Shown here one piece after another: positions 29,692 through 49,514 of a stretch of 64,000 nucleotides of DNA. The DNA comes from Methanolobus sediminis. GTDB lineage: Archaea; Halobacteriota; Methanosarcinia; Methanosarcinales; Methanosarcinaceae. Below the pieces are notes generated by a model. That model was given only the letters and a program-made list of their open reading frames with translations. It did not search any database and was not told the DNA's origin. The position numbers and the translations under genes were made by a program. The number at the start of each line of letters is the position of its first letter. The first letter of the stretch is position 1. The stretch covers positions 1,178,001-1,242,000 of the forward strand of contig NZ_CP133592.1 in NCBI RefSeq assembly GCF_031312595.1, read 5' to 3'.

Positions 29692-32139
29692 TTACCTCTG
29701 GAAAATTATACCCTTATGATCCAGTAGATGATACAATCTCACTTTTATCAGATCAGTAATCACAAAAGCCACAAGTGCATACAGCCATACAATGCCTGCA
29801 AGCTTCCAGCCTATTGGGGATATGTAGAAACCATAGACAACAACAAGAGTTGCAAGGATCTTGGTTCCGATAGTTGACCAGAAGAGTATTCCACTTGGCC
29901 TGATAGACCAGAAAGGACCTCTTGTACGTGCAAGGAATATTGTCAGATGACCTGCAACTGCAAGTTTCAGGAATATGAATGACTGTAGTACATCCTGATT
30001 CAGATTGAGAATATTTAGCCCGATATAAAATATTATGAATGAAGATATCACACCTATAATTCCCAGGAAAGTTGCCATACTCAGGACTTCCCTTATATTC
30101 CATTTCTCAGGGAATGGTGAGTAATTCACATTATCATATGCAATGGCCATGATAGGAGCATCGTTGAACAGTGCGAGCAATACTATCATAATAGCAGTCA
30201 CAGGATAGAAATTAAAAGCAATAATCGACGTTGCAATAAAGAATAACACACGCACAGTCTCAGCTATCCTGTAAATAGAATAACTCTTCATACGCTGGAA
30301 TATTTTTCGGCTCTCTTTTATTGCATCGATGATCGTTGAAAGACCCGGGGCAGTGAACACAATATCAGCAGCAGACCTTGCTGCATCCGTGGCTCCGGCA
30401 ACTGCAATTCCGGCATCCGCCTTTTTAAGGGCAGGAGCGTCATTTACTCCATCACCGGTCATACCCACTATATGTCCGTCATCCTGAAGGAGTTCCACTA
30501 TTCTGTACTTGTGTTCCGGGAACACCTGTGCGAAACCATCCGACCTGTCAACTACCTCCTGTGCCTGAAGGTCAGTCTTATCTTCCAGTTCAGAAGCGGT
30601 GGTGATATTAGTACCCAGACCGATCTGGCTTGCAATCTCCTTTGCAATGGCAGCATGGTCACCGGTGATCATCTTAACATCAACACCCATGCTCACAGCC
30701 GTATCTATCGTTTCTGCAGAATCTTCATGTGGCGGATCATACAGCCCGATAAGTCCTGCAAAATGGCATTCATTCCCTTCGCATACACCAACACCAAGAG
30801 GACGATAACCTTTCGATGCAAGGACATTTACTTTTTCCTCCACATCATCCTTGATACTGTCCCTGTTAATAGCCATATCAAGAAGAACCTGTGGTGCCCC
30901 CTTGGCTACCTTGAACTTTCTGCCATCAGAACTCTCAATATTGGCCTCCGTATGTTTGATAACAGGATCGAACGGTTTAAAATCCAGTACATTATAACCA
31001 GCAGCTTTTTCCTGCAAACCATCCAGAGTTGCTATCTTTCTCAGAACCGCGTTATCGATTGGGTCATTATCTTCCTCTCTGGAAGCAAGGGCACTGTAAA
31101 TCAGAAGGTCCTCTGTTGTATAATAACCGAATGGGATCATGTCAGACAACGTCAGTTCATTCTTTGTGATCGTACCGGTCTTATCGGAACAGAGAACATC
31201 CATACCTGCCATTTCTTCAATAGATACAAGCTTACTTACGATAGCTCCCTTTCCTGCAAGGTTGGTAGCACCAACAGCCATGGATACCGAAAGTACTGCG
31301 GGCAAAGCTGCAGGTATGGCAGCAACAACAAGCACCAGAGCGAACTGAAGCGTCTCTACAAGACTCTCCTGCCTGAAGACAGCAACAATAAAAACAACTG
31401 CAACCAGAATGGCAGCAAGGAATATGAGGTAATCACCTATCTTAATGATAGCTTTCTGGAAATGACTTTGTGTCTTGACATCAGTCAGCAATTTTGTGGT
31501 CTTGCCAAAATAAGTATCCATTCCGGTGGCAAATACGAGTCCGTTCATTTCTCCTTTCTGGATAACGGAACCTGAAAAACCAATATCGTTAGTACCTTTG
31601 TCTGCCGGCAGCGATTCTCCTGTCAATGCAGACTCATCTATCTGCAGGTAGTCACCTTCGAAAAGTTTGACATCTGCAGGTACAATATCACCTGAGCGAA
31701 GACGGATAACATCTCCCGGAACAATTTCACGTGCAGGAAGAGGTTTCCATTTTCCATCTCTCAGAACTCTTGCCTGAAGAGCCATTTTATTTTTAAGTAA
31801 CTCAATGGCATTATCCGCTTTGTTCTCCTGCCAGAAACCCACCACACCATTCAGGATCAAAAGGATCGAGATTATAGCAAAATCTTCCCAGCGTTGAATA
31901 AATGCCGAAAGCAAAGCTGCTATCTCAATCATCCAGGGAATCGGACCCCAGAAATAACCTATGAACTTTATGAAAGGACTTGTCTTCTTTTCAAGCAGTT
32001 CGTTATAGCCGTATTGTTCAAGCCTGTCCTGCACTTCACTATCTTTTATGCCTTTTGAAGTCGATCCTAATTTGGTGAATAACTCATCCACACTCAGATC
32101 TTTTGCATTGGTTATACCTGACGTTGCCGTTTCCTTCAT
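29692..32139 (-). CDS. P-type (type IIIA) plasma-membrane H+-transporting ATPase
   Basis: 815 residues. Motifs: phosphorylation site CSDKTGTIT (Asp about 322), TGES (ALTGESLPADKG), nucleotide-binding KGAPQV, MITGDHAAIA and hinge TGDGVNDAPALKKADAGIAV; about ten TM helices including PAALPAVLSV in TM4. The arrangement is that of fungal/plant H+-ATPases and their archaeal homologues, pumping protons out at the expense of ATP. It is the last gene of the oxidase transcription unit (13 bp after the 93-aa gene). It could counter acidification or use ATP for pH homeostasis; its link to the oxidase is inferred from position only. Confidence 0.92.
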   Translation of the reverse strand: MKETATSGITNAKDLSVDELFTKLGSTSKGIKDSEVQDRLEQYGYNELLEKKTSPFIKFIGYFWGPIPWMIEIAALLSAFIQRWEDFAIISILLILNGVVGFWQENKADNAIELLKNKMALQARVLRDGKWKPLPAREIVPGDVIRLRSGDIVPADVKLFEGDYLQIDESALTGESLPADKGTNDIGFSGSVIQKGEMNGLVFATGMDTYFGKTTKLLTDVKTQSHFQKAIIKIGDYLIFLAAILVAVVFIVAVFRQESLVETLQFALVLVVAAIPAALPAVLSVSMAVGATNLAGKGAIVSKLVSIEEMAGMDVLCSDKTGTITKNELTLSDMIPFGYYTTEDLLIYSALASREEDNDPIDNAVLRKIATLDGLQEKAAGYNVLDFKPFDPVIKHTEANIESSDGRKFKVAKGAPQVLLDMAINRDSIKDDVEEKVNVLASKGYRPLGVGVCEGNECHFAGLIGLYDPPHEDSAETIDTAVSMGVDVKMITGDHAAIAKEIASQIGLGTNITTASELEDKTDLQAQEVVDRSDGFAQVFPEHKYRIVELLQDDGHIVGMTGDGVNDAPALKKADAGIAVAGATDAARSAADIVFTAPGLSTIIDAIKESRKIFQRMKSYSIYRIAETVRVLFFIATSIIAFNFYPVTAIMIVLLALFNDAPIMAIAYDNVNYSPFPEKWNIREVLSMATFLGIIGVISSFIIFYIGLNILNLNQDVLQSFIFLKLAVAGHLTIFLARTRGPFWSIRPSGILFWSTIGTKILATLVVVYGFYISPIGWKLAGIVWLYALVAFVITDLIKVRLYHLLDHKGIIFQR

Positions 32140-32152
32140 ACATTGTCACCAT

Positions 32153-32434
32153 TCACATTGAAATACTTCCAAACTCAGCCCAGTGTGCAATGAAGTAAGC
32201 CACTGTCCACACAAATAGTATAAAGTAGATCACATATAGGAAAATTGTGATAGGTCCATGGGATTCAGCTATCACTCCTCCAAACTCCTCTGCATGTGAA
32301 TTTGCATCTTCCAGACTGTAGTGGTCCCTGTTCTTTGCGCTCAGCCAGACAAATATCAGGCTTGACAGCACTACGAAAACAGTTAGCCATACCAGAAAAT
32401 TCACATGGGATGCGTACTCCATGGTAAAACTCAT
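32153..32434 (-). CDS. two-TM protein of the cbb3 oxidase operon
   Basis: 93 residues, two hydrophobic helices (about 12-31 and 62-84) joined by a hydrophilic EDANSHAEEFGGVIAESHGP loop. The loop plus second helix (PITIFLYVIYFILFVWTVAY) recalls the N-terminal membrane segment of CcoP-type subunits, but there is no CxxCH, so it would be a heme-free membrane subunit. ATG overlaps the CcoS-like stop by four bases and has GGGGGGAGAT as SD. Assignment to the oxidase is by position and topology. Confidence 0.65.
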   Translation of the reverse strand: MSFTMEYASHVNFLVWLTVFVVLSSLIFVWLSAKNRDHYSLEDANSHAEEFGGVIAESHGPITIFLYVIYFILFVWTVAYFIAHWAEFGSISM

Positions 32435-32631: not shown

Positions 32632-35481
32632 TCAGCTCCTCATATTTCTTGCATAGTCACTTTCATACAATGGACCCCACTTTGCATTGTAATCATCTGT
32701 TGTGGCGAAATTCTGGATATAGAATATCGTCATGTATACCTCCTCATCACTGAGAGCATACTTCCATGGAGGCATATTAGTGGTCTCCACACCCTCTTTT
32801 ACCTTCCAGACATATTGTCCGTAGTATTGGAAATCACCACCGGATTCTGTGAAATTTGCAGGCTCCGGATTGATATATCCTCCCGAACTCAGAATAGAGG
32901 CAACACCATCCCCCTGTCCTTCAACACCGTGACACTGGGAACAGTACAGGTTAAAGAGATTCTGCCCTGTCTCAAACTGTTCCTGTGTTCCCTCGATAGG
33001 TGGGGTGATATGTGTCTGGTTCGAGAAATTAATTGCTTCGGCATCGGACACATCACCGCTAACGGTCCTGATGGAACCTGTTGCAAAGCTCATCTCATAG
33101 AAATTCGTCATCCAGATTTCAGTCTCGTTCATGCTCAGTTTCCAGCTTGGCATTGCTGTACCAGGAACACCTTCGCTTACACGCCAGAAATGATAGGAAT
33201 CCCCTGGCTCCGGCATATAGCTCAGTATCCTCTCATGAAGATTGGCAGGTTGGGTCACAACATGTCTTGCATATGGGCCCTGTGCATTTCCTGAACATCC
33301 ATGACATGTCAGACAACGTTGTGTGTAGGTTTTCTTACCTTCTTCAAATACAGCGGCAAATTCCTCACCTGTAGCCTGATCTCCTGTATATGTCTGGTCA
33401 CTTGAATTATAATTCATCATGGCAGCAGACATATAGCTTGCATAAGGCTGATCTTTGCCCTGATATTCATACGGCACTTCAGGATGGAAACTCATCTCAT
33501 CAAGATTGTATGTTCCAAGATTCTGGATATACGCAACCAGCTGATCAAGTTCAGTATCTGTGAGGAAGTCGAATGGAGGCATAATAGAACTCGGGCTTGT
33601 GGTTCTTGCATCCCTGTCATGCAGGTAATGCCAGCCTGTAGGCCTCATTCCCCCTATCTGGGACAGGTCCGGACCTGTACGCTCCGTACCCAGCAGATGA
33701 GGAGAGTCATAGTAGTAATCACCCTGTTCGGATATTCTTCCGATAGCCCAGTCCTGTGGTCTTACAAATTGTGAATGACAATAGAAACAACCCATTTCTG
33801 TATAGATTACTCTTCCCTTTTCTTCATCTACGGTATATGGATGTGCCATGTCCGTGGCATTTACGGTATCAAGATTAAGTGCCGGCATAGCAACCACCAT
33901 CCAGGTCATCAGAAGGAAGAGAGCCAGCCCGCCGAATACTATAACAGGCATGCTCATAGCATGTTGGGACCTTTTTTGTAATGATGAATGTGGCCTGGAG
34001 CTTTGTTCAGAGGATATACTGAAGATATTCTCCTCAACATGAGGCTCCTTTGAATGTGTAAATGTCAGCAGGGTGTTATATGCAAACACATATCCTGCTA
34101 CCACGACCAGCCCGCCGCCCATGGCTCTGGTAACATACCAGAACTGCAGTAGCTTTAGAACAGGAGCTACGGTGATATTCTGGAACCATGCTGAATTGGC
34201 TACCAGTCCTGCTATTGTCATGGACAGGAAAAAACCGGTAAATCCTATGAGTGCAAGCCACCAGCTTATGCTCATGAGCCTGTCACTGTATATCTTCGTC
34301 CTTGTTATCTTAGGTATCAACCAGTACATCATTCCCACTGCCAGGAAACCAAAACCTCCAAGTATTGCCAGATGGGCATGTCCCACTGTCCACTGTGAGA
34401 AATGCAGGAATGAATTGGTGCTTCTCAGACCCTGATAAGCTCCCTGGATGGAAGTGAGAACATAGAAGAAGAAACCTGTGACTATGAATCTGAAAGGAAT
34501 GTCCTTTGTGAAAGTATCCCATGAACCCCTGAGGGTCATACCCAGATTGACTGCAAAAGTAACCACAGGCACAAGCATCAGAATGCTCATGACAACTGCG
34601 ATAGTCTTCACCCATTCAGGTATTGCTGTTTGCAGCAGATGATGACCACCTACACCTGTGTAGAAGAAAGCGATGGTAAAGAAACTTATAACCGAAAGAA
34701 GGTGACTGTAAAGAGGTCTGTTAATGATACGTGGGACTGCATAGTACCATGTACCTATTCCAAGAGTGGTGAACCAGAGTCCAAGAACATTGTGTCCATA
34801 GTACCAGTTGAATATGGAATCAGTAATACCCTGAAGTGCACCGGACGGTGGGTTCCACATGACATTACCAACAAAATAGACAATCGGGAACCAGATGAAT
34901 GTACCTGTGTAGTACCAGGTAGAAACATAGAGTTTTTTCTCGGTCCTGCGTCCGAAAGTGGACAGGATGTTGTAGAGTATCAACAGCAATGTAATCATTA
35001 TAAGAACATCGATGGACCATGGAAGTTCTGCATATTCCCTTCCCTGTGTATCACCAAGGAAGAGGATCATCAGTATTCCTGCCAGAAGAGCGAAGTTCCA
35101 GAGTACAGCGGATATCTTGGCGAGTCTGGCACTATATATTTTAGTGTTTACAAGTCGTGGAATAGCCCAGAACATACCACCTATCAGAGCCGATGAAACG
35201 AATCCAAAAAGCACACCGTTGACATGAGCAGGCCTTATCCTGCCAAATGTAAGGAAAGCCGCATCACTTAAGAAATAGGGCTGGAAGAATTTAATCGCAA
35301 GTATAAATCCCAGTGTGGCAAATATCGGGAACCATAATAATGATCCTATAAACCAGTATTTTACCGCATCGTCGCCTTCCAGAAATTTGTCTCCGGCAAG
35401 TTCGTCCCTTATATCGTTTGCCTTGTGTTCATTTTGTGATGACGGAACGCCATCATCCTGCAGATTACTTTCAGACTCCAA
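32632..35481 (-). CDS. ccoNOP: single-chain cbb3-type heme-copper oxidase: CcoN-CcoO-CcoP-like fusion
   Basis: 949 residues. Residues about 40-480: CcoN, twelve-helix type. Low-spin heme b ligands H86 (GRIRPAHVNG) and H370, heme b3 ligand H368 (TVGHAHLA), CuB ligands H230 (WYYGHN), H280/H281 (GGHHLL), and the cross-linking tyrosine in GTWYYAVPR (about 246). Residues about 505-535: one TM. Residues about 560-660: CcoO-type heme c (GCFYCHSQFVRPQDW, MPPFDFLT axial Met). Then two more c-type domains, CLTCH (723-727) and CSQCH (847-851), each with a downstream MP(S/P)W(K) axial Met. It would reduce O2 to water with electrons from a cytochrome c. TTG 35481 follows GGGGAGGT; an earlier TTG (35508) lacks SD. 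A three-subunit fusion is unusual. Confidence 0.9.
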   Translation of the reverse strand: MESESNLQDDGVPSSQNEHKANDIRDELAGDKFLEGDDAVKYWFIGSLLWFPIFATLGFILAIKFFQPYFLSDAAFLTFGRIRPAHVNGVLFGFVSSALIGGMFWAIPRLVNTKIYSARLAKISAVLWNFALLAGILMILFLGDTQGREYAELPWSIDVLIMITLLLILYNILSTFGRRTEKKLYVSTWYYTGTFIWFPIVYFVGNVMWNPPSGALQGITDSIFNWYYGHNVLGLWFTTLGIGTWYYAVPRIINRPLYSHLLSVISFFTIAFFYTGVGGHHLLQTAIPEWVKTIAVVMSILMLVPVVTFAVNLGMTLRGSWDTFTKDIPFRFIVTGFFFYVLTSIQGAYQGLRSTNSFLHFSQWTVGHAHLAILGGFGFLAVGMMYWLIPKITRTKIYSDRLMSISWWLALIGFTGFFLSMTIAGLVANSAWFQNITVAPVLKLLQFWYVTRAMGGGLVVVAGYVFAYNTLLTFTHSKEPHVEENIFSISSEQSSRPHSSLQKRSQHAMSMPVIVFGGLALFLLMTWMVVAMPALNLDTVNATDMAHPYTVDEEKGRVIYTEMGCFYCHSQFVRPQDWAIGRISEQGDYYYDSPHLLGTERTGPDLSQIGGMRPTGWHYLHDRDARTTSPSSIMPPFDFLTDTELDQLVAYIQNLGTYNLDEMSFHPEVPYEYQGKDQPYASYMSAAMMNYNSSDQTYTGDQATGEEFAAVFEEGKKTYTQRCLTCHGCSGNAQGPYARHVVTQPANLHERILSYMPEPGDSYHFWRVSEGVPGTAMPSWKLSMNETEIWMTNFYEMSFATGSIRTVSGDVSDAEAINFSNQTHITPPIEGTQEQFETGQNLFNLYCSQCHGVEGQGDGVASILSSGGYINPEPANFTESGGDFQYYGQYVWKVKEGVETTNMPPWKYALSDEEVYMTIFYIQNFATTDDYNAKWGPLYESDYARNMRS

Positions 35482-35699
35482 TCTATAACCTCCCCGATAG
35501 AAATTCAAAAGAGTTTTTCAAATCATAAACCCCTTGAAATATCCCACATAAATTTGTTAAGGTGATACTATTTATTCCTATCTAAAAAGAATATTGTGCA
35601 ATCAAATGAAAAACGATGTGATGCGACTATGTGGTTTGAGGTTACACATCAGAACATAAACAGACTTAAATACAAGGCTATCAGCATATTAATATTGAA

Positions 35700-36296
35700 A
35701 TGTGGGGTGATAATATAAAAGACAGAAAAATTATAGTTGTATTTTTACTTGTAGCGATAACTCTGGCCTGTGCATCTGTGGCATCAGCAGAATCCAGATT
35801 TCTGAGCAGTTTCAATCAACAATATGATACCTCTGGTACGGTACTGGATTCATGTGATGTCTGCCACTCCGGACCGAACGGTGGTTCGCTCGATTCCTAT
35901 GGAAGGGCATATTCTGGGAGCGGAAGGAACTTTGCATCAATAGAGGATCTTGATTCAGATGGTGATGGGTTCACCAATATTGAAGAGATAGAGGCTCTGA
36001 CATTCCCGGGAGATTCCAGCGATTATCCTGAGGTCACAGCGGTGACGATATCTGAACCAATTGTAAATGAAACAGATACGACTGCCAATGAAAGTGTAGA
36101 GGAACAGGATGAATCAGAGGAAACTGAGATAGAGGATATGGAAGAAGAAACAGAAGATGTAGAGGTAGAAGAGGAAACAGAGGACATGGAAGAGATGAAC
36201 AATGAAACTTCATCAGATGCACAATCTCCTGGATTTGAGGCTATTTTTGCAATTGCTGGAATACTATCCGTGATATATCTGAATAAGCGAAAGTAA
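35700..36296 (+). CDS. secreted monoheme cytochrome c with PGF-CTERM anchor (1)
   Basis: 198 residues. Signal peptide (IIVVFLLVAITLACAS, VASAES cleavage), then SCDVCHSGPNGG, a single CxxCH heme c site, a Ca-binding thrombospondin-type-3/dockerin-like loop DSDGDGFTNIEEI, a long Glu-rich linker, and a PGF-CTERM tail (SPGFEAIFAIAGIL, NKRK) processed by archaeosortase A. Divergent from ccoNOP, 219 bp away: a likely electron carrier to it. ATG 35700 fits the TATA CTTAAATACA (leaderless). However GGGGTGA at 35704-35710 followed by ATA 35715 aligns with the ATA of the paralogue at 37374, so the true start may be ATA 35715. Confidence 0.8.
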   Translation: MWGDNIKDRKIIVVFLLVAITLACASVASAESRFLSSFNQQYDTSGTVLDSCDVCHSGPNGGSLDSYGRAYSGSGRNFASIEDLDSDGDGFTNIEEIEALTFPGDSSDYPEVTAVTISEPIVNETDTTANESVEEQDESEETEIEDMEEETEDVEVEEETEDMEEMNNETSSDAQSPGFEAIFAIAGILSVIYLNKRK

Positions 36297-36694: not shown

Positions 36695-36932
36695 AGCTAC
36701 CACTCCCTGTTCAGTTATTTGTTGGCCAATCCCTGATTAGAATTTTATCCAGCATGCTATAAAGACGTTTGTGAGAGGAAATGGAAAACTGATATCCGTT
36801 CCTGCAATTCAGAAAGTTGGCAGATAGCAAATATCACAGATCATTTTCTCATAATATTCTTCGTATATTTTAATAAAAAACTAATTTGACAAAATATTAA
36901 TACAATGTTTGACACCGTATTATATGGTACAT

Positions 36933-37043
36933 ATGAGTGACAATGGCAAGTCAAGCACCATGGGAATTATGCTTGTAATTCTCCTATATATCGCAATGAT
37001 AGTTGCCATGGGGTTAGCTGCAGGTTATATTAATCTTAAATAA
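36933..37043 (+). CDS. 36-residue single-TM protein in the oxidase island
   Basis: ATG 36933 to TAA 37041-37043. Short hydrophilic N-terminus (MSDNGKSSTMG), one 22-residue hydrophobic helix (LVILLYIAMIVAMGLAAG) and a YINLK tail. AATATTAATAC about 30-35 nt upstream is TATA-like, fitting a leaderless mRNA. Size and shape recall the tiny single-helix subunits of heme-copper oxidases (CcoQ, or subunit IIa of ba3 oxidases), suggestive given its place between the two cytochrome genes, but there is no sequence motif that proves it. A hairpin GGAGTAT/ATACTCC (37084-37114) follows. Confidence 0.6.
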   Translation: MSDNGKSSTMGIMLVILLYIAMIVAMGLAAGYINLK

Positions 37044-42467: not shown

Positions 42468-42490
42468 AACGGAGATTTAACTCCGTTTTT
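42468..42490. terminator. bidirectional terminator between norD and the giant surface protein
   Basis: AACGGAG (42468-42474) pairs with CTCCGTT (42481-42487), followed by six T on the plus strand; on the minus strand a T-run (rc of AAAAAAAG at 42453-42460) follows. It serves both convergent genes and overlaps the last codons of the minus-strand gene. Confidence 0.65.
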
Positions 42491-45400
42491 TGTACACAAT
42501 AAATGCACCTACTAACAGGACGGAAATACCTCCCAGTATTGCCAGAATACCTGTAGAACTGCTAGATGATTCAGGAGCTTCTTTATTAGCATTATTTTCT
42601 ACAGTTGTATCCTCAACTGACATAAGACTATCCTCTTCAACAATCTCAGTAGCTTCTGCTTCTGAACCTATTGCAAAAGGAGAGAATCCGGGGGTTTCAC
42701 TCTCTAAGTAAACAAATTCATCGTCTTCCCCTGTTATAGAAGTTGGAAGTGCATTCCATGAACCATCTGAATATCTGTAGAGATATACTGTGCTTGCTTC
42801 GATGTTATTCTCTTCAAGCCATGACTTTTCAACCTTGAAAGTGATCAGCAGGTTCTCAACATTCTCAGGAGTTACGAAGCCGGATTTACCAACCCAGATG
42901 TTCATCTGCTGGTAGATAGTACCCGGTGCATCAACATCTGCAAATGAGGATCTATCCTTCAGTACTTCAACAATAGTAGAGATTGTGCCGGAGTTCTTCA
43001 GGGAATCGAACTGGACGGATGTGATACTGTTTCCTTCTTCAGTAAACACATAATTTACGTGAGAGTCCTTGTTGATGAAAATACTTATTACGTCTTTTAC
43101 AAGAATATTTTCATATGCCTCACCAGTGGTTCCACCGCCACCACCGCCACCACCTGAGGAAGGGTTAGTTGTGTAGGTGGTGGAACCGGAAGCTATTGTG
43201 AATGAAGTACTGAATAAAGAAGGATTTCCTGCATTGTCTGTTACATATACAGACGTTGAGTGAGAACCAGCACTAAGTCCGGAAGCTGTATATGAAACAC
43301 CAGATGTTGTCACCGTTGCACTATCAGTTAAATCCACACCATCAACTGAAAAGATAATTGAATTGAAGTTTATTCCTGTGCAATCATCTCCGTATGTGAA
43401 ATGGATGTCTACTGAGGTCGTGCCTTCAACAAAAGGAGTACCTTCAGAAGGAGTTACACTTCCAAGAACTGGTGCTACGGAATCGATTCCTAATGCTGCA
43501 TAGATAGAGAAGTGATCAACCGTTGCAACCCAGTAATCAGTATCATCTATAGTATCAACTATAGTATCATAGATTTCCCAAATACCTGTGCTTTCATTGA
43601 AGTAGCAAATAGAAACATCATCTGCAGTCATACCTTCGGGAATAATAGAGATATTCACAGGAATAGATATAGTTGCATTGAATAAGTTGTCGCTCATATC
43701 TGATCCAAGATGGACATCCAATATACAAAGACCAATGTAACCACTTGAGAGTTCAAGGAAAGGACTTGTACTCTCACTTACAATGATTGTATCATTGAAA
43801 GTACCATTTGCTGTGAAATTGATTTTTAAGCCACTTCCTGATTCAAAGGAACCTTTGCCTTCTGAAACTTCCACTAAAGTAATATGGGAATCTGTTTCAG
43901 CAATTGCCTGATTGCCTGCCATGTCTTGACCAATAACATTGATATTGTAAACATTAGAAGTATCAAGCTCGAAGATTCCACTCCAATAATCCCCATTTGC
44001 CTCCATATTCACACTGTTTCTATTGACAGTCACAGCAGGAATCGACTCTAATGATTCTGAGCTGCTTACATTTACATAGGCATGTGAATCATCGATCATC
44101 GAGATTGAACTATATAAGCATGGAGAAACTCTGTCTATATTTACTACGATATCTGATATTGTGGAGTTAGTGTTCTTTGCACCATCTTCTGCAACTACTG
44201 TTACATAATATTCCCCATCATCGGGAATCGATGATAGATTGAAGTAACCAATCCAATTTCCATCTTCATTGAAAGCACTTGAAGTTATCTCAAAATTGCT
44301 GAAGTTAGAGGATAGAATTACATCGACTGAACTGGGATTTCCCGGAGTGCCTGAAACAGAGACATTGACTGACAGTTCCAAGTTAGCGTAAACCATCTTA
44401 TCTACAGTATTTGATCCACTTATGCTGTTAATTTCTATGGAAGGAATGGTATTATCTACAACTACTGGAACTTCCTTTGACGAGAAGTGACCATATAAAT
44501 CAAAACTTGTCAGATTCAAGTAATATGTTCCACTTGGAACTGATTCACCTGTTTGATTAGTTGCATTCCAGGTTAATAGATAATCATCTGTACTTATGTA
44601 TTCGGTCATATTTTTGGTGAAAACCGTATTTCCTGAACCATTCATAATAATGAATTCAGTTACACCTGGATACATATCACTGCTGTTGAGTATTATATCA
44701 ACTGGATTGTTCACGCTTATATTGCTGTCAAATCCAACACTGATGTTGACAAAAGGAGCACCATCATCAACTATAATGGTTCCACTTACTTCAGGTGACC
44801 AGGCACCATCATCGTCCTGAACCTTGAAGTAAATTGTATGTGTACCAACTGAAAGAGCACTGGTGCTAAATTCAGCAGAAGTACTCAACTGACCATCAAT
44901 GGTGGATCGCCAATTGTAACCAATGATAGTACCATCATTATCAACTCCATTACCAACAAAAGAGACTAGAGTGCCTTCTATTGTTGGGTTTGGTAATATT
45001 GAAGTAATGTTAGCTGTTGGAGCTTCATTAGAAATCTCATAAATGGTCAAACTAGCTGATACGATATCGGACCATTCTCCATCATCATCCTGAACCTTGA
45101 AGTAGATCGTATGAGTGCCTGCTGAAAGAGCACTGGTACTAAAACTGGATGAACTACTTAAATACCCGTCAATGCTTGAAGTCCAGTAGTATCCTGTCAC
45201 TGTACCATCATTGTCAGTACCACTTCCAGAGAATGAAACAGATACACCTTCTGTGGCAGGATTTGGGGAAACACTGGTAATAGATGCCACAGGTTCCTCA
45301 TTGTTTTCTGAAGCAGAACTGCTTTCATAATAATACTTTTCAACAAATGGATAGTACCTCAATGAAAGATCATCATCTGCAACTTTAAAGCTTAAGCCTT

Positions 45401-48400
45401 CTGCAATGTCAACTGTATCACCAATACTGAGAATAATAGTACCAATATTGTACATTTCTATGGTTGAACTGGAGATGCTATCAACTTCAAGCTCTCCAAA
45501 CTCGTCACCTGCATCTATATAGATCACATTTTCGTAATCTATGAGATAGAGTCCTTCAACTACTACTAGGCTGTCCACCTGACCCTGGAATACATCGGTT
45601 ACAAGTAACCTGAAGACTATTACATCATCAGTATTACCAACATCGGTGTCATAGGTCCATGTTGCTTCACCGCTTAATACATCGATTACTGCATCTTCTA
45701 TGAATTCACCATCTTTGGAGAGTTCCATCCAGACCTTGTCACCTTCTACATCGATCTGCTTGGCGGTAAGTTCATAGCCACCTGCAAGCTCAAGGGCAGA
45801 ACCTGTCCTAAGAGTGTACTTGTTATCATTATCAACAAGGAGCTTTACAAGTTCGTCAGGAGCTGAATCAGATACAGAAACATAATCTTCACCTAAGAAA
45901 CCAATAAGAGGATATGTATATTGGTATCCAGCACCTTCAGCAGCGAAATTGGCAGCATATTCATTCTGCACAATTGTAGCATTATATCTTAATGTACCCT
46001 CAGGAATTACACGTCCTGAAATTTCTGTTACTGCAAGTTGCTCGGAACCAATATCATCATTGATATCATACCAGAAGCCGGCAAAGTTTGCAGGAGTCCA
46101 TATATTTTCAGCAGTTGCAAGTTCTCCCCTTATAGTGTATAATCCAGATTCTGTGCACTCTTCCATTAGGTAGAACCTAAGTGCATTATCATCTGCAACC
46201 CGGAATTTGAGATTTTCTGCTAGATCAACAATACTATCCACACTTAGGATTATTGGAGCTGAATTCAGCATCTCGACTGAAGTACTAATACTGTTAACTT
46301 CAAGCTCTCCAAACTCATCACCTACATCTATATAGAGCACATTTTCGAAATCTATGAGATAAAGTCCTTCAACTACTACTAGGCTGTCCACCTGACCCTG
46401 GAATATGTCAGTTACAAGTACCCTGAAGACTATTACATCGTCAGTATTACCTATATCAACGTCATAGGTCCATGTTACTTCACCACCTGATACGTCAATT
46501 ACTTCATCTTCTACGAATTCACCATCTTTGGAGAGTTCCATCCAGACCTTGGTACCTTCTACATCGATCTGCTTGGCGGTTAATTCATAGCCATCTGCAA
46601 GCTCAAGGGCAGAACCTGTCCTGAGAGTGTATTTGTTATCAGTGTCCAGAAGGAGCTTTACAAGTTCTCCTGCATCACTATCATCAGTTGGAACATACTT
46701 CTCGGCAAAGAGACCAATGACAGGATAGGTATATTGATAGGAACCTATAGCCTCAGCCGCAAAATCAGCAGAGTATTCTGTCTGCTGAATTGTTGCTGAA
46801 TATCTCAGAGCTTCTGCAGGAATTGTGCGGTCATTGATTTCGCTTATTTCCATTACTTCTGAAGCGATATCGTCATCGATATCGTACCAGAAGCCAGCAA
46901 AGTTTGCAGCTGTGAATGTACACGGACCAGTATAAACTGGGCTTCTAATATCTAAATATGCATTTCCTGCACCAGACGAGGAATCTGAAGAAGATGATTC
47001 GCTGTTTATAGTTAAACTAGCTGATACGATATCGGACCATTCTCCATCATCATCCTGAACCTTGAAGTAGATCGTATGAGTGCCTGCTGAAAGAGCACTG
47101 GTACTAAAACTGGATGAACTACTTAAATACCCGTCAATGCTTGAAGTCCAGTAGTATCCTGTCACTGTACCATCATTGTCAGTACCACTTCCAGAGAATG
47201 AAACAGATACACCTTCTGTGGCAGGATTTGGGGAAACACTGGTAATAGATGCCACAGGTTCCTCATTTGGCTCTATGACTTTAATGTAATTAGTCTTAGT
47301 TATAGAATCCGAACCATAATTGTTAGATACATCCAGAATTACGGAGTAATTTCCAGCTACATCATACGTATGTGCAGGATTTTGCTCTGTTGAAGTTGCA
47401 CCATCACCAAAGTCCCATGACCATGATGTTGGATTACCACTTGAACTGTCAGTAAACTGCACCTCAATTGGTGTTACACCACTGGTAGCATCCGCGTAGA
47501 ATGAAGCAACTGGAGCCTGTCCACCTGTACTAGAGGTTGCAACTATCGCATAAACTCCTTTTGTAGTGGCAAGGAAAATATCATCGATGTTATCAGAATT
47601 GCAATCCAGCCAGCCAACAAGCTGGGCATATACCCAATCATCTGAAGAATATTGGGCATTCCATAGTTCATTTCCATTATTTCCATCTACAGCTGAAAAT
47701 ATTCCACCTTCATAATATATCCATTCATAAGTTGATTCATCATACCAGTTAAAGTAATACTCTATTTCTATAGTAGGATCTATCACAGAATCTCCATTCA
47801 AATCGGAAACAGAGTCTACCCACGAATAAACACCTACATACAGATTATCATCAGTTTCATCAATCGAAATATCAATTGATAGTGGATATGACTCATACCA
47901 ACATTGACTTCCATCTGCTCCACTTAGAACTTTTAAGTTAACAATATAATCCGTGGTATCCACGGAATCCAAACTTGTTATAAAAACATCATCTTTATTG
48001 TCACCATTTATATCAGCACCAAGAAATACATCACCACTATCATCATAAAAACCATCGTATTCCCAGATAGGGTTACCATTGGAACCATCCAAAGTATTGA
48101 TTGAAAATTCATATAAGGAATAGTCGTAGGAATATTCATCAGTGAACATATAAATATCCTCAACTGTATCATCATTCACGTATCCTGTTGAGAACCAATA
48201 ATATTCATAATCACATGCTGATGTCCAAATCACAGAACCATCAACCGAACTTAAAAGTATTACTTCGCTTTCAGTTCCTATTACAATATCCTGGCCAATT
48301 GCTAGAATATCACATAAGTTGGATGAATATGTATTGCTCCATATTTCAGCACCATTTGTTCCTTTTAACATACGTAACTGTGTAGGATTACCATTTATTG

Positions 48401-49514
48401 CGAGTATTATATCTGGAAGACCATCCCCATCACAATCATCTACGATTTCGTATGTAAACCATGAATCAATAGTAGAGTAACTGAAAAATGGTGTGCCATC
48501 ATATCCATTTACTAGGTGCAAAGTGTAATAGTCAGTATATGTCCAAGTATCGTCATCATATTCATAATCATATGAATAAAAAATTAAATCATTTACACCG
48601 TCACCTGTAAAATCGGTTGTAGTTACTTCTACATCACCTTCAAACGTATTTTCCCAAATTTTGAAACATGTCGATGAATCTAATGCAATCAAAGTCGTTT
48701 CATACTCATATTCATATTCGCCATTGATTTCAGTTTCATAGTCACAATATAAATACAAAATTACATCATCTGTTCCATCACCATTCAAATCTGAAAAATC
48801 ATAATTAAAATAAGGGTAAACATACAAATAACTGGAATCTCTTGTAATATCAAAAGAATTATCTTTCCAGACATCTCCTGATTCACCACTCAGTATCTCC
48901 ACAAAAACCGTTACTTGATTTTCACTGTTATGATCCTCATAACAGATGATTAATTCAGCTACACCATCTGAATTTAAATCATCATAAAGAGTCATCACAG
49001 AACTGATATATCCATAATATTTTTGCCAGATGATAGAACCATCTTTTCCGCTTCTCATGGTGAGCATATCATTATCAAAAATAACCACATCAAAAATACC
49101 ATCATCGTTTACGTCATCGGATATGTCAACAACCACTTCTTCATACATCTCTGTATTTTCGTAGCTCCATAATATCTCTGCATTTCCATTCAATGTAAAA
49201 GTGTAGCTCGATTGCTCATCAGAAATAGAGCTTAACTCTATATCACTTTGTACACTAGCTGTTTCCGGCATAAAAGAACCATCTTCTGCAAGAATAGAAC
49301 GTTCTTGATAGTCTCTTTCTTTTTCAGCAAGAGACATCTTTAAGTTAGAAAGAGTTACCATTCTCTCCTCAAATGTCATATCGGAAACATCAATGTCAGA
49401 TAGACTAACTTGATCATATCCTTCAATATTACTATCATCAGCATTTACAATGCCTATACTAAATAATGCTAAAATTAGCATAAGCTCAATAAACAATATT
49501 CTAATATTTTTCAC
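42477..49514 (-). CDS. giant secreted surface protein: FG-GAP, PKD, two S-layer domains, PGF-pre-PGF
   Basis: 2345 residues. Signal peptide (to NADD). Residues about 95-660: FG-GAP/VCBS-like repeats with Ca loops such as DLNGDGTDDV, DFTGDGVNDL and DCDGDGLPDI. About 670-745: PKD (WSWDFGDGATS). About 749-833 and 1404-1488: identical PKD/CARDB-like domains. About 845-1128 and 1128-1401: two methanosarcinal S-layer duplication domains (NFAGFWYDI, NKYTLRTGSALELA, YLID). Then PKD/Ig-like domains, a Gly-rich linker and a PGF-pre-PGF domain (ETPGFSPFAIG, about 2130-2285), a Ser-rich linker and a terminal TM with KKRS. Probably an envelope or adhesion protein integrated with the S-layer. Confidence 0.9.
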   Translation of the reverse strand: MKNIRILFIELMLILALFSIGIVNADDSNIEGYDQVSLSDIDVSDMTFEERMVTLSNLKMSLAEKERDYQERSILAEDGSFMPETASVQSDIELSSISDEQSSYTFTLNGNAEILWSYENTEMYEEVVVDISDDVNDDGIFDVVIFDNDMLTMRSGKDGSIIWQKYYGYISSVMTLYDDLNSDGVAELIICYEDHNSENQVTVFVEILSGESGDVWKDNSFDITRDSSYLYVYPYFNYDFSDLNGDGTDDVILYLYCDYETEINGEYEYEYETTLIALDSSTCFKIWENTFEGDVEVTTTDFTGDGVNDLIFYSYDYEYDDDTWTYTDYYTLHLVNGYDGTPFFSYSTIDSWFTYEIVDDCDGDGLPDIILAINGNPTQLRMLKGTNGAEIWSNTYSSNLCDILAIGQDIVIGTESEVILLSSVDGSVIWTSACDYEYYWFSTGYVNDDTVEDIYMFTDEYSYDYSLYEFSINTLDGSNGNPIWEYDGFYDDSGDVFLGADINGDNKDDVFITSLDSVDTTDYIVNLKVLSGADGSQCWYESYPLSIDISIDETDDNLYVGVYSWVDSVSDLNGDSVIDPTIEIEYYFNWYDESTYEWIYYEGGIFSAVDGNNGNELWNAQYSSDDWVYAQLVGWLDCNSDNIDDIFLATTKGVYAIVATSSTGGQAPVASFYADATSGVTPIEVQFTDSSSGNPTSWSWDFGDGATSTEQNPAHTYDVAGNYSVILDVSNNYGSDSITKTNYIKVIEPNEEPVASITSVSPNPATEGVSVSFSGSGTDNDGTVTGYYWTSSIDGYLSSSSSFSTSALSAGTHTIYFKVQDDDGEWSDIVSASLTINSESSSSDSSSGAGNAYLDIRSPVYTGPCTFTAANFAGFWYDIDDDIASEVMEISEINDRTIPAEALRYSATIQQTEYSADFAAEAIGSYQYTYPVIGLFAEKYVPTDDSDAGELVKLLLDTDNKYTLRTGSALELADGYELTAKQIDVEGTKVWMELSKDGEFVEDEVIDVSGGEVTWTYDVDIGNTDDVIVFRVLVTDIFQGQVDSLVVVEGLYLIDFENVLYIDVGDEFGELEVNSISTSVEMLNSAPIILSVDSIVDLAENLKFRVADDNALRFYLMEECTESGLYTIRGELATAENIWTPANFAGFWYDINDDIGSEQLAVTEISGRVIPEGTLRYNATIVQNEYAANFAAEGAGYQYTYPLIGFLGEDYVSVSDSAPDELVKLLVDNDNKYTLRTGSALELAGGYELTAKQIDVEGDKVWMELSKDGEFIEDAVIDVLSGEATWTYDTDVGNTDDVIVFRLLVTDVFQGQVDSLVVVEGLYLIDYENVIYIDAGDEFGELEVDSISSSTIEMYNIGTIILSIGDTVDIAEGLSFKVADDDLSLRYYPFVEKYYYESSSASENNEEPVASITSVSPNPATEGVSVSFSGSGTDNDGTVTGYYWTSSIDGYLSSSSSFSTSALSAGTHTIYFKVQDDDGEWSDIVSASLTIYEISNEAPTANITSILPNPTIEGTLVSFVGNGVDNDGTIIGYNWRSTIDGQLSTSAEFSTSALSVGTHTIYFKVQDDDGAWSPEVSGTIIVDDGAPFVNISVGFDSNISVNNPVDIILNSSDMYPGVTEFIIMNGSGNTVFTKNMTEYISTDDYLLTWNATNQTGESVPSGTYYLNLTSFDLYGHFSSKEVPVVVDNTIPSIEINSISGSNTVDKMVYANLELSVNVSVSGTPGNPSSVDVILSSNFSNFEITSSAFNEDGNWIGYFNLSSIPDDGEYYVTVVAEDGAKNTNSTISDIVVNIDRVSPCLYSSISMIDDSHAYVNVSSSESLESIPAVTVNRNSVNMEANGDYWSGIFELDTSNVYNINVIGQDMAGNQAIAETDSHITLVEVSEGKGSFESGSGLKINFTANGTFNDTIIVSESTSPFLELSSGYIGLCILDVHLGSDMSDNLFNATISIPVNISIIPEGMTADDVSICYFNESTGIWEIYDTIVDTIDDTDYWVATVDHFSIYAALGIDSVAPVLGSVTPSEGTPFVEGTTSVDIHFTYGDDCTGINFNSIIFSVDGVDLTDSATVTTSGVSYTASGLSAGSHSTSVYVTDNAGNPSLFSTSFTIASGSTTYTTNPSSGGGGGGGGTTGEAYENILVKDVISIFINKDSHVNYVFTEEGNSITSVQFDSLKNSGTISTIVEVLKDRSSFADVDAPGTIYQQMNIWVGKSGFVTPENVENLLITFKVEKSWLEENNIEASTVYLYRYSDGSWNALPTSITGEDDEFVYLESETPGFSPFAIGSEAEATEIVEEDSLMSVEDTTVENNANKEAPESSSSSTGILAILGGISVLLVGAFIVYKKRS
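45049..45302. repeat. exact 254-bp direct repeat, copy 1
   Basis: Identical as read by eye to 47014-47267, 1965 bp away in the same gene. Encodes one complete PKD-like domain (FSGSGTDNDGTVTGYYW). The flanks diverge at once on both sides. Confidence 0.9.
47014..47267. repeat. exact 254-bp direct repeat, copy 2
   Basis: Second copy of the repeat at 45049-45302. The absence of even silent differences implies recent duplication or ongoing gene conversion, since the S-layer domains between the copies have diverged. Confidence 0.9.

Follow-up and report, generated by a model that had tools for sequence, protein, structure and literature searches.

Genes at the fused oxidase locus

The window, a stretch of 64,000 nt from Methanolobus sediminis, carries a 949-codon gene whose product joins a CcoN-like core, a CcoO/FixO-like part and two further heme c domains; genes for CcoS, a 93-aa two-helix protein and a P-type H+-ATPase follow on the same strand, and a gene for a PGF-CTERM-anchored protein is divergent (Table 1).

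Table 1. Features predicted at the fused oxidase locus, with nt positions in the window and residues in 949-aa numbering
Feature	Position	Strand	Basis and remarks
Fused oxidase, 949 aa	32632..35481	-	TTG start; ORF listing, Pfam and PDB matches
CcoN-like core (COX1; hemes b, b3, CuB)	34030..35367	-	H86, H230, H280, H281, H368, H370, Y274; Pfam, PDB, alignment, model
CcoO/FixO-like part, one transmembrane helix and monoheme c domain	33451..33966	-	C565-C568-H569, M634
Second c-type heme domain	33064..33366	-	C723-C726-H727, M777
Third c-type heme domain	32704..32985	-	C847-C850-H851, M903
CcoS (FixS) cbb3 maturation protein, 64 aa	32431..32625	-	Pfam FixS 7.3e-11; 3' of the fusion in relatives too
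93-aa two-helix protein, like CcoP N-terminal membrane anchor, heme motif absent	32153..32434	-	Profile comparison, FixP_N, tblastn
P-type H+-ATPase (type IIIA)	29692..32139	-	TIGR01647 1073 bits; 13 nt after the anchor gene
PGF-CTERM-anchored protein, one CxxCH	35700..36296	+	Divergent from the oxidase

The frame of the fused gene was uninterrupted from nt 35481 down to 32632 on the minus strand, which is a correction to the sequence-only reading; the plus strand contained many stop codons across the same interval. The same frame was open already from a TTG at nt 35508, which would yield 958 aa, but the TTG at nt 35481 is the likely start, because GGGGAGGT lies just 5' of it and an ATG occupies the same codon in the genome G019. 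The 949-aa count, to which the residue numbers of the sequence-only reading correspond, equals the 958-aa count minus 9 (H86 = H95, Y274 = Y283).

A Pfam search of the fused ORF returned COX1 (8.7e-84), FixO (9.9e-32) and two copies of Cytochrome_CBB3, that is, all three models that had been proposed as a check. The best solved chains in the PDB search were CcoN 3mk7_A (1.5e-67) and CcoO 9g83_u (1.9e-21), and three heme c motifs, CFYCH, CLTCH and CSQCH, were located at residues 574, 732 and 856 (958-aa numbering). The ORF, the Pfam and PDB matches and the CxxCH motifs thus bear out the earlier description of CcoN, CcoO and two more CxxCH domains in one frame. In the NCBIfam scan, no cbb3 or c-cytochrome model scored above its cut-off with the fused protein (271.8 versus 583.15 bits for the ccoN equivalog); the protein is therefore without a curated model.

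Active site and channel residues

Alignment with P. stutzeri CcoN showed that the six His ligands for the hemes and CuB, each of them named in the sequence-only reading, were present and invariant among 16 homologues. The YY of GTWYYAVPR, listed there as well, did not hold its place among the ligands: its first Tyr, Y246, aligned with the channel residue Y223 of P. stutzeri, and the active-site Tyr is Y274, which lies six residues ahead of HH and is the counterpart of Y251. In the P. stutzeri enzyme (3mk7), Y251 is the cross-linked Tyr and Y223 belongs to the proton channel. The oxidase Tyr and the K-channel residues (Y274, Y246, S263 and T238) were invariant in the 16 fusions, as were the three heme c Cys/Cys/His sets and the candidate Met ligands (M634, M777 and M903). 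At the position of the nitric oxide reductase (NOR) metal-site Glu, the fused protein had Gly243, and true NOR rows in the same alignment had Ile or Leu where the fusion has Tyr283 (both in 958-aa numbering); the combination expected of a NOR, a metal-site Glu with no active-site Tyr, was thus not found. Glu323 of canonical cbb3, located near heme b3, was replaced by Gln355 (958-aa numbering), Gln being found in every fusion and in the unfused relatives of the fusions, and Glu in the canonical and Bacteroidetes rows.

The COX1 fold and the six His ligands place the chain in the heme-copper oxidase superfamily, and the helix-VII Tyr, the K-type channel residues, the CcoO monoheme domain and the presence of a CcoS maturation factor are those of its C family (cbb3-type). 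Structure prediction with AlphaFold gave a pLDDT of 52 with an 11-sequence input and 75.7 with a 32-row alignment, the latter being used. The best structural match of this model was cbb3 CcoN (TM 0.90 by target, E about 1e-21), versus TM 0.84 (E 3e-12) for NOR and TM 0.73 for ba3. Confidence was low in places around the CcoO domain, and the model supports the placement in the cbb3 family, though not the layout of the c domains.

The fusion, CcoS and anchor cassette

The order fusion-CcoS-anchor was kept in the Methanolobus relatives, ANME-2, Syntrophaceae, Clostridiales, Thermoleophilia, Desulfosporosinus sp. BG, Actinobacteria, G219 and G1011; a second Desulfosporosinus contig stops within the fusion. 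The enzyme is thus a three-gene cassette and not a self-sufficient single chain, so that the term "self-contained" applied to it earlier has to be dropped: CcoS and a heme-less anchor of the CcoP type come next in the fusion loci checked. A single-sequence family search with the 93-aa protein gave no confident match. The profile of its family matched CcoP N-termini with 91% probability, versus about 4% at most for the controls (CcoS, NorC, CcoN stretches and a reversed profile); Pfam FixP_N matched two members of the anchor family (best 1.9e-4), and tblastn located an unannotated anchor adjoining a Sinorhizobium fredii (S. fredii) cbb3 locus. By these matches, the CcoP anchor persists as a separate 93-aa protein.

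In profile comparison, the C-terminal c-domain pair matched unfused CcoO-c-c proteins at 100%, the NOR-linked diheme cytochrome of genomes of a Methanoperedens-like family (f5) at 99.6% and canonical CcoP domains at 98%. Since c domains are of a generic kind, and the NOR-linked diheme cytochrome was matched more strongly than canonical CcoP, the pair is not established as CcoP's own.

Several loci showed additional features. The anchor of G219 was longer by about 140 aa of extra membrane helices (L089:7956-8660 (-)); the cassette of Clostridiales was followed by genes for a DUF4399-like secreted protein and for ResB (L021:11304-14323 (+)), and a similar secreted protein was encoded at this position in Desulfosporosinus (L023:11286-12092 (+)). 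Methanoperedens-like genomes (L079, L080, L077) had a cytochrome-c-type NO reductase with a diheme cytochrome c upstream.

Authenticity, distribution and evolutionary history

A contaminating or misassembled sequence, of which the sequence-only reading had warned together with a frameshift separating CcoN from the CcoO and c parts, is an explanation of practically negligible probability, and nothing was seen in its favour. The fused gene shared a 2.79-Mb contig with mcrA in a genome (G000) that is 99.97% complete with 0.08% contamination, orthologues with the same operon were found in isolates and MAGs, and the frame was single and open in 16 homologues; both frameshift and contamination were therefore rejected. 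Its assignment to a methanogen likewise stands, with orthologues in three further Methanolobus and in a sister genus.

The fusion was detected in 4 of the 27 Methanolobus genomes and in G219, which belongs to another genus of the same family. Among the four Methanolobus and the sister genus, dN/dS was 0.05-0.08 overall and low in each segment, and by this measure the fused gene is under strong purifying selection. G009 kept the ATPase and CbbQ genes with the cassette missing between them, a gene order by which the cassette is gained or lost as a unit. Cytochrome c assembly genes were found in the M. sediminis genome. CydA of cytochrome bd was also present in G000 and G019, whereas G014 and G025 had the oxidase without CydA; where cytochrome bd is encoded, O2 reduction need not rely on the fused oxidase.

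Outside this family, the fusion was found in 12 of 34 genomes of f5, presumably Methanoperedenaceae, and in Desulfosporosinus, Clostridiales, Syntrophaceae, Thermoleophilia and other Actinobacteria. In a tree (a phylogeny had been suggested as a further check), the 16 fusions formed one clade (100/99) distant from the canonical cbb3 and separate from that of Bacteroidetes, and the closest unfused rows were Actinobacterial, with CcoN separate and a CcoO with several c domains. A constraint making the archaeal fusions monophyletic was rejected (AU p 5e-5), indicating at least one transfer of the fused gene between Archaea and Bacteria. In the MAG G1034 (L124), the fusion was read as a pair of overlapping ORFs, one for CcoN and one for CcoO-c-c, which may be a natural split or a frameshift.

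Comparison with known oxidases

The fused protein shares with canonical CcoNOQP (P. stutzeri 3mk7, Rhizobium fixNOQP) the fold, the six His, the helix-VII Tyr, the K-channel residues, the CcoO domain, five hemes in total and CcoS, at an identity of about 30%. It departs from the canonical enzyme, which has three to four chains, in lacking a CcoP that combines anchor and two hemes in one protein, in having Gln for Glu323 and in falling below the ccoN equivalog cut-off. The Bacteroidetes CcoN-CcoO fusion (PRK14485) likewise joins CcoN to CcoO, but it has about 705-710 aa, one c heme per chain and a separate CcoP, and clusters phylogenetically with canonical cbb3. In the unfused split-CcoP oxidases of the S. 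fredii plasmid and Actinobacteria (L109-L112), CcoO bears two or more extra c domains as here, a heme-less separate anchor occurs in S. fredii and L109 as in the fusion loci, and S. fredii has a CcoS-like ORF, whereas CcoN is a protein of its own. The S. fredii locus on plasmid pSF45436b (L099:4050-7620 (-)) encodes CcoN, a CcoO extended by two c domains, and unannotated CcoS-like and anchor ORFs. Cytochrome c NO reductase NorCB, of the same superfamily and about 20-25% identical, has the metal-site Glu and lacks both the oxidase Tyr and CcoO, differing from the fusion in each respect.

Cytochrome bd (CydAB), also a terminal oxidase of Methanosarcinaceae, has a fold unrelated to heme-copper oxidases, uses a quinol-type donor and contains neither copper nor heme c. 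In the literature covered, it is this enzyme that is treated as the terminal oxidase of Methanosarcinaceae (PMC11362671, PMC12774963). A survey of December 2025 (PMC7618691) noted isolated heme-copper-oxidase matches for three strains of Methanosarcinales and found nothing reported on the expression or function of these matches. Only a subunit I-III fusion is named for this complex in the available part of a survey of archaeal fusions (PMC11237513), and the available part of a Methanoperedenaceae survey (PMC7327174) mentions no such oxidase; an earlier mention may exist elsewhere.

Proposed function

With good probability, the fused protein is the catalytic chain of a membrane-bound O2 reductase of the C (cbb3-type) heme-copper family that is fed by cytochrome c. 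CcoN, CcoO and two c-type hemes replacing those of CcoP are united in one chain, with the CcoP membrane anchor kept as a separate protein and the CcoS gene between the two. What we infer concerns catalysis, the electron route and the role. An extracytoplasmic donor would feed the outer c hemes; it may be a c-type cytochrome, possibly the neighbouring PGF-anchored protein, or alternatively MmcA-type cytochromes reduced by methanophenazine. Electrons would then pass to the CcoO-like heme, heme b and finally heme b3/CuB, where O2 would be reduced to water with protons supplied via a K-type channel. The likely use would be the removal of O2 at low concentration, perhaps with some energy gain.

The sequence-only reading had allowed for either O2 or NO as substrate; O2 reduction is the likeliest chemistry, and NO is disfavoured because the fused protein has Gly in place of the NOR Glu and possesses the oxidase Tyr, opposite to what the true NORs of the alignment show. 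An enzyme mainly serving NO reduction and detoxification is accordingly improbable, although C-family heme-copper oxidases are able to reduce NO as a side activity and a CbbQ/NorQ gene lies nearby with a VWA-domain (NorD-like) gene. CbbQ occurred in 27 of 27 Methanolobus, and so is not specific to the oxidase, and the Methanoperedens-like G058 has a separate cNOR beside its fusion. It is more improbable still that the gene is a laterally acquired passenger functionless in the methanogen. Such a passenger, a possibility raised for methanogen heme-copper-oxidase matches (PMC7618691), would account for the patchy occurrence and for the equivalent site of G009 without the cassette, but not for the low dN/dS, the retention of all ligands, CcoS and the anchor, or the presence of cytochrome c assembly genes. 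A pure O2 scavenger without energy gain, acting as a companion to cytochrome bd, overlaps with the C-family O2 reductase proposed here and is narrower on role, not on chemistry; its chances fall a little short of even, the anaerobic host and the CydA of G000 and G019 speaking for it, and the conserved K-channel residues and the two genomes with the oxidase but no CydA against it.

Methanogens are textbook strict anaerobes. That a methylotrophic methanogen conserves energy from low O2 by means of a single-chain cbb3-like oxidase, compact and spread by lateral transfer, which works with the proton ATPase encoded next to it and with a cytochrome c at the cell surface, is conceivable but rather unlikely. 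Compared with the isolated heme-copper-oxidase matches known previously, one gene is now seen intact and under selection, accompanied by CcoS and the anchor and common to anaerobic archaea and bacteria, so that O2 respiration or scavenging by methanogens and anaerobic methane oxidizers is open to direct test. The gene content suggests that a cbb3-like oxidase is reducible to a single chain with hemes and an anchor with none.

Neighbouring genes

In each of the four Methanolobus with the oxidase, the ATPase gene lay beside the cassette, with which it is probably co-transcribed; outside Methanolobus it was not part of the conserved cassette, and five other Methanolobus had it without the oxidase. 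The PGF-CTERM-anchored CxxCH protein is a candidate electron donor. A tie of the CbbQ/NorQ and VWA genes to the oxidase was considered and rejected. Near the G219 oxidase, a plastocyanin-like cupredoxin lipoprotein is encoded (L089:12723-13094 (+)), which is a possible electron donor.

A conserved stretch of 135 bp (window nt 36909-37043 (+)), with 82-93% identity in three Methanolobus, lay in G019 and G025 5' of the oxidase, and in G009 5' of the ATPase; an Rfam search with it gave no match, and it encodes a small membrane peptide, MVHMSDNGKSSTMGIMLVILLYIAMIVAMGLAAGYINLK. Further along the window, nt 42477-49514 (-) encode a surface protein of 2345 aa with S-layer and PKD domains.
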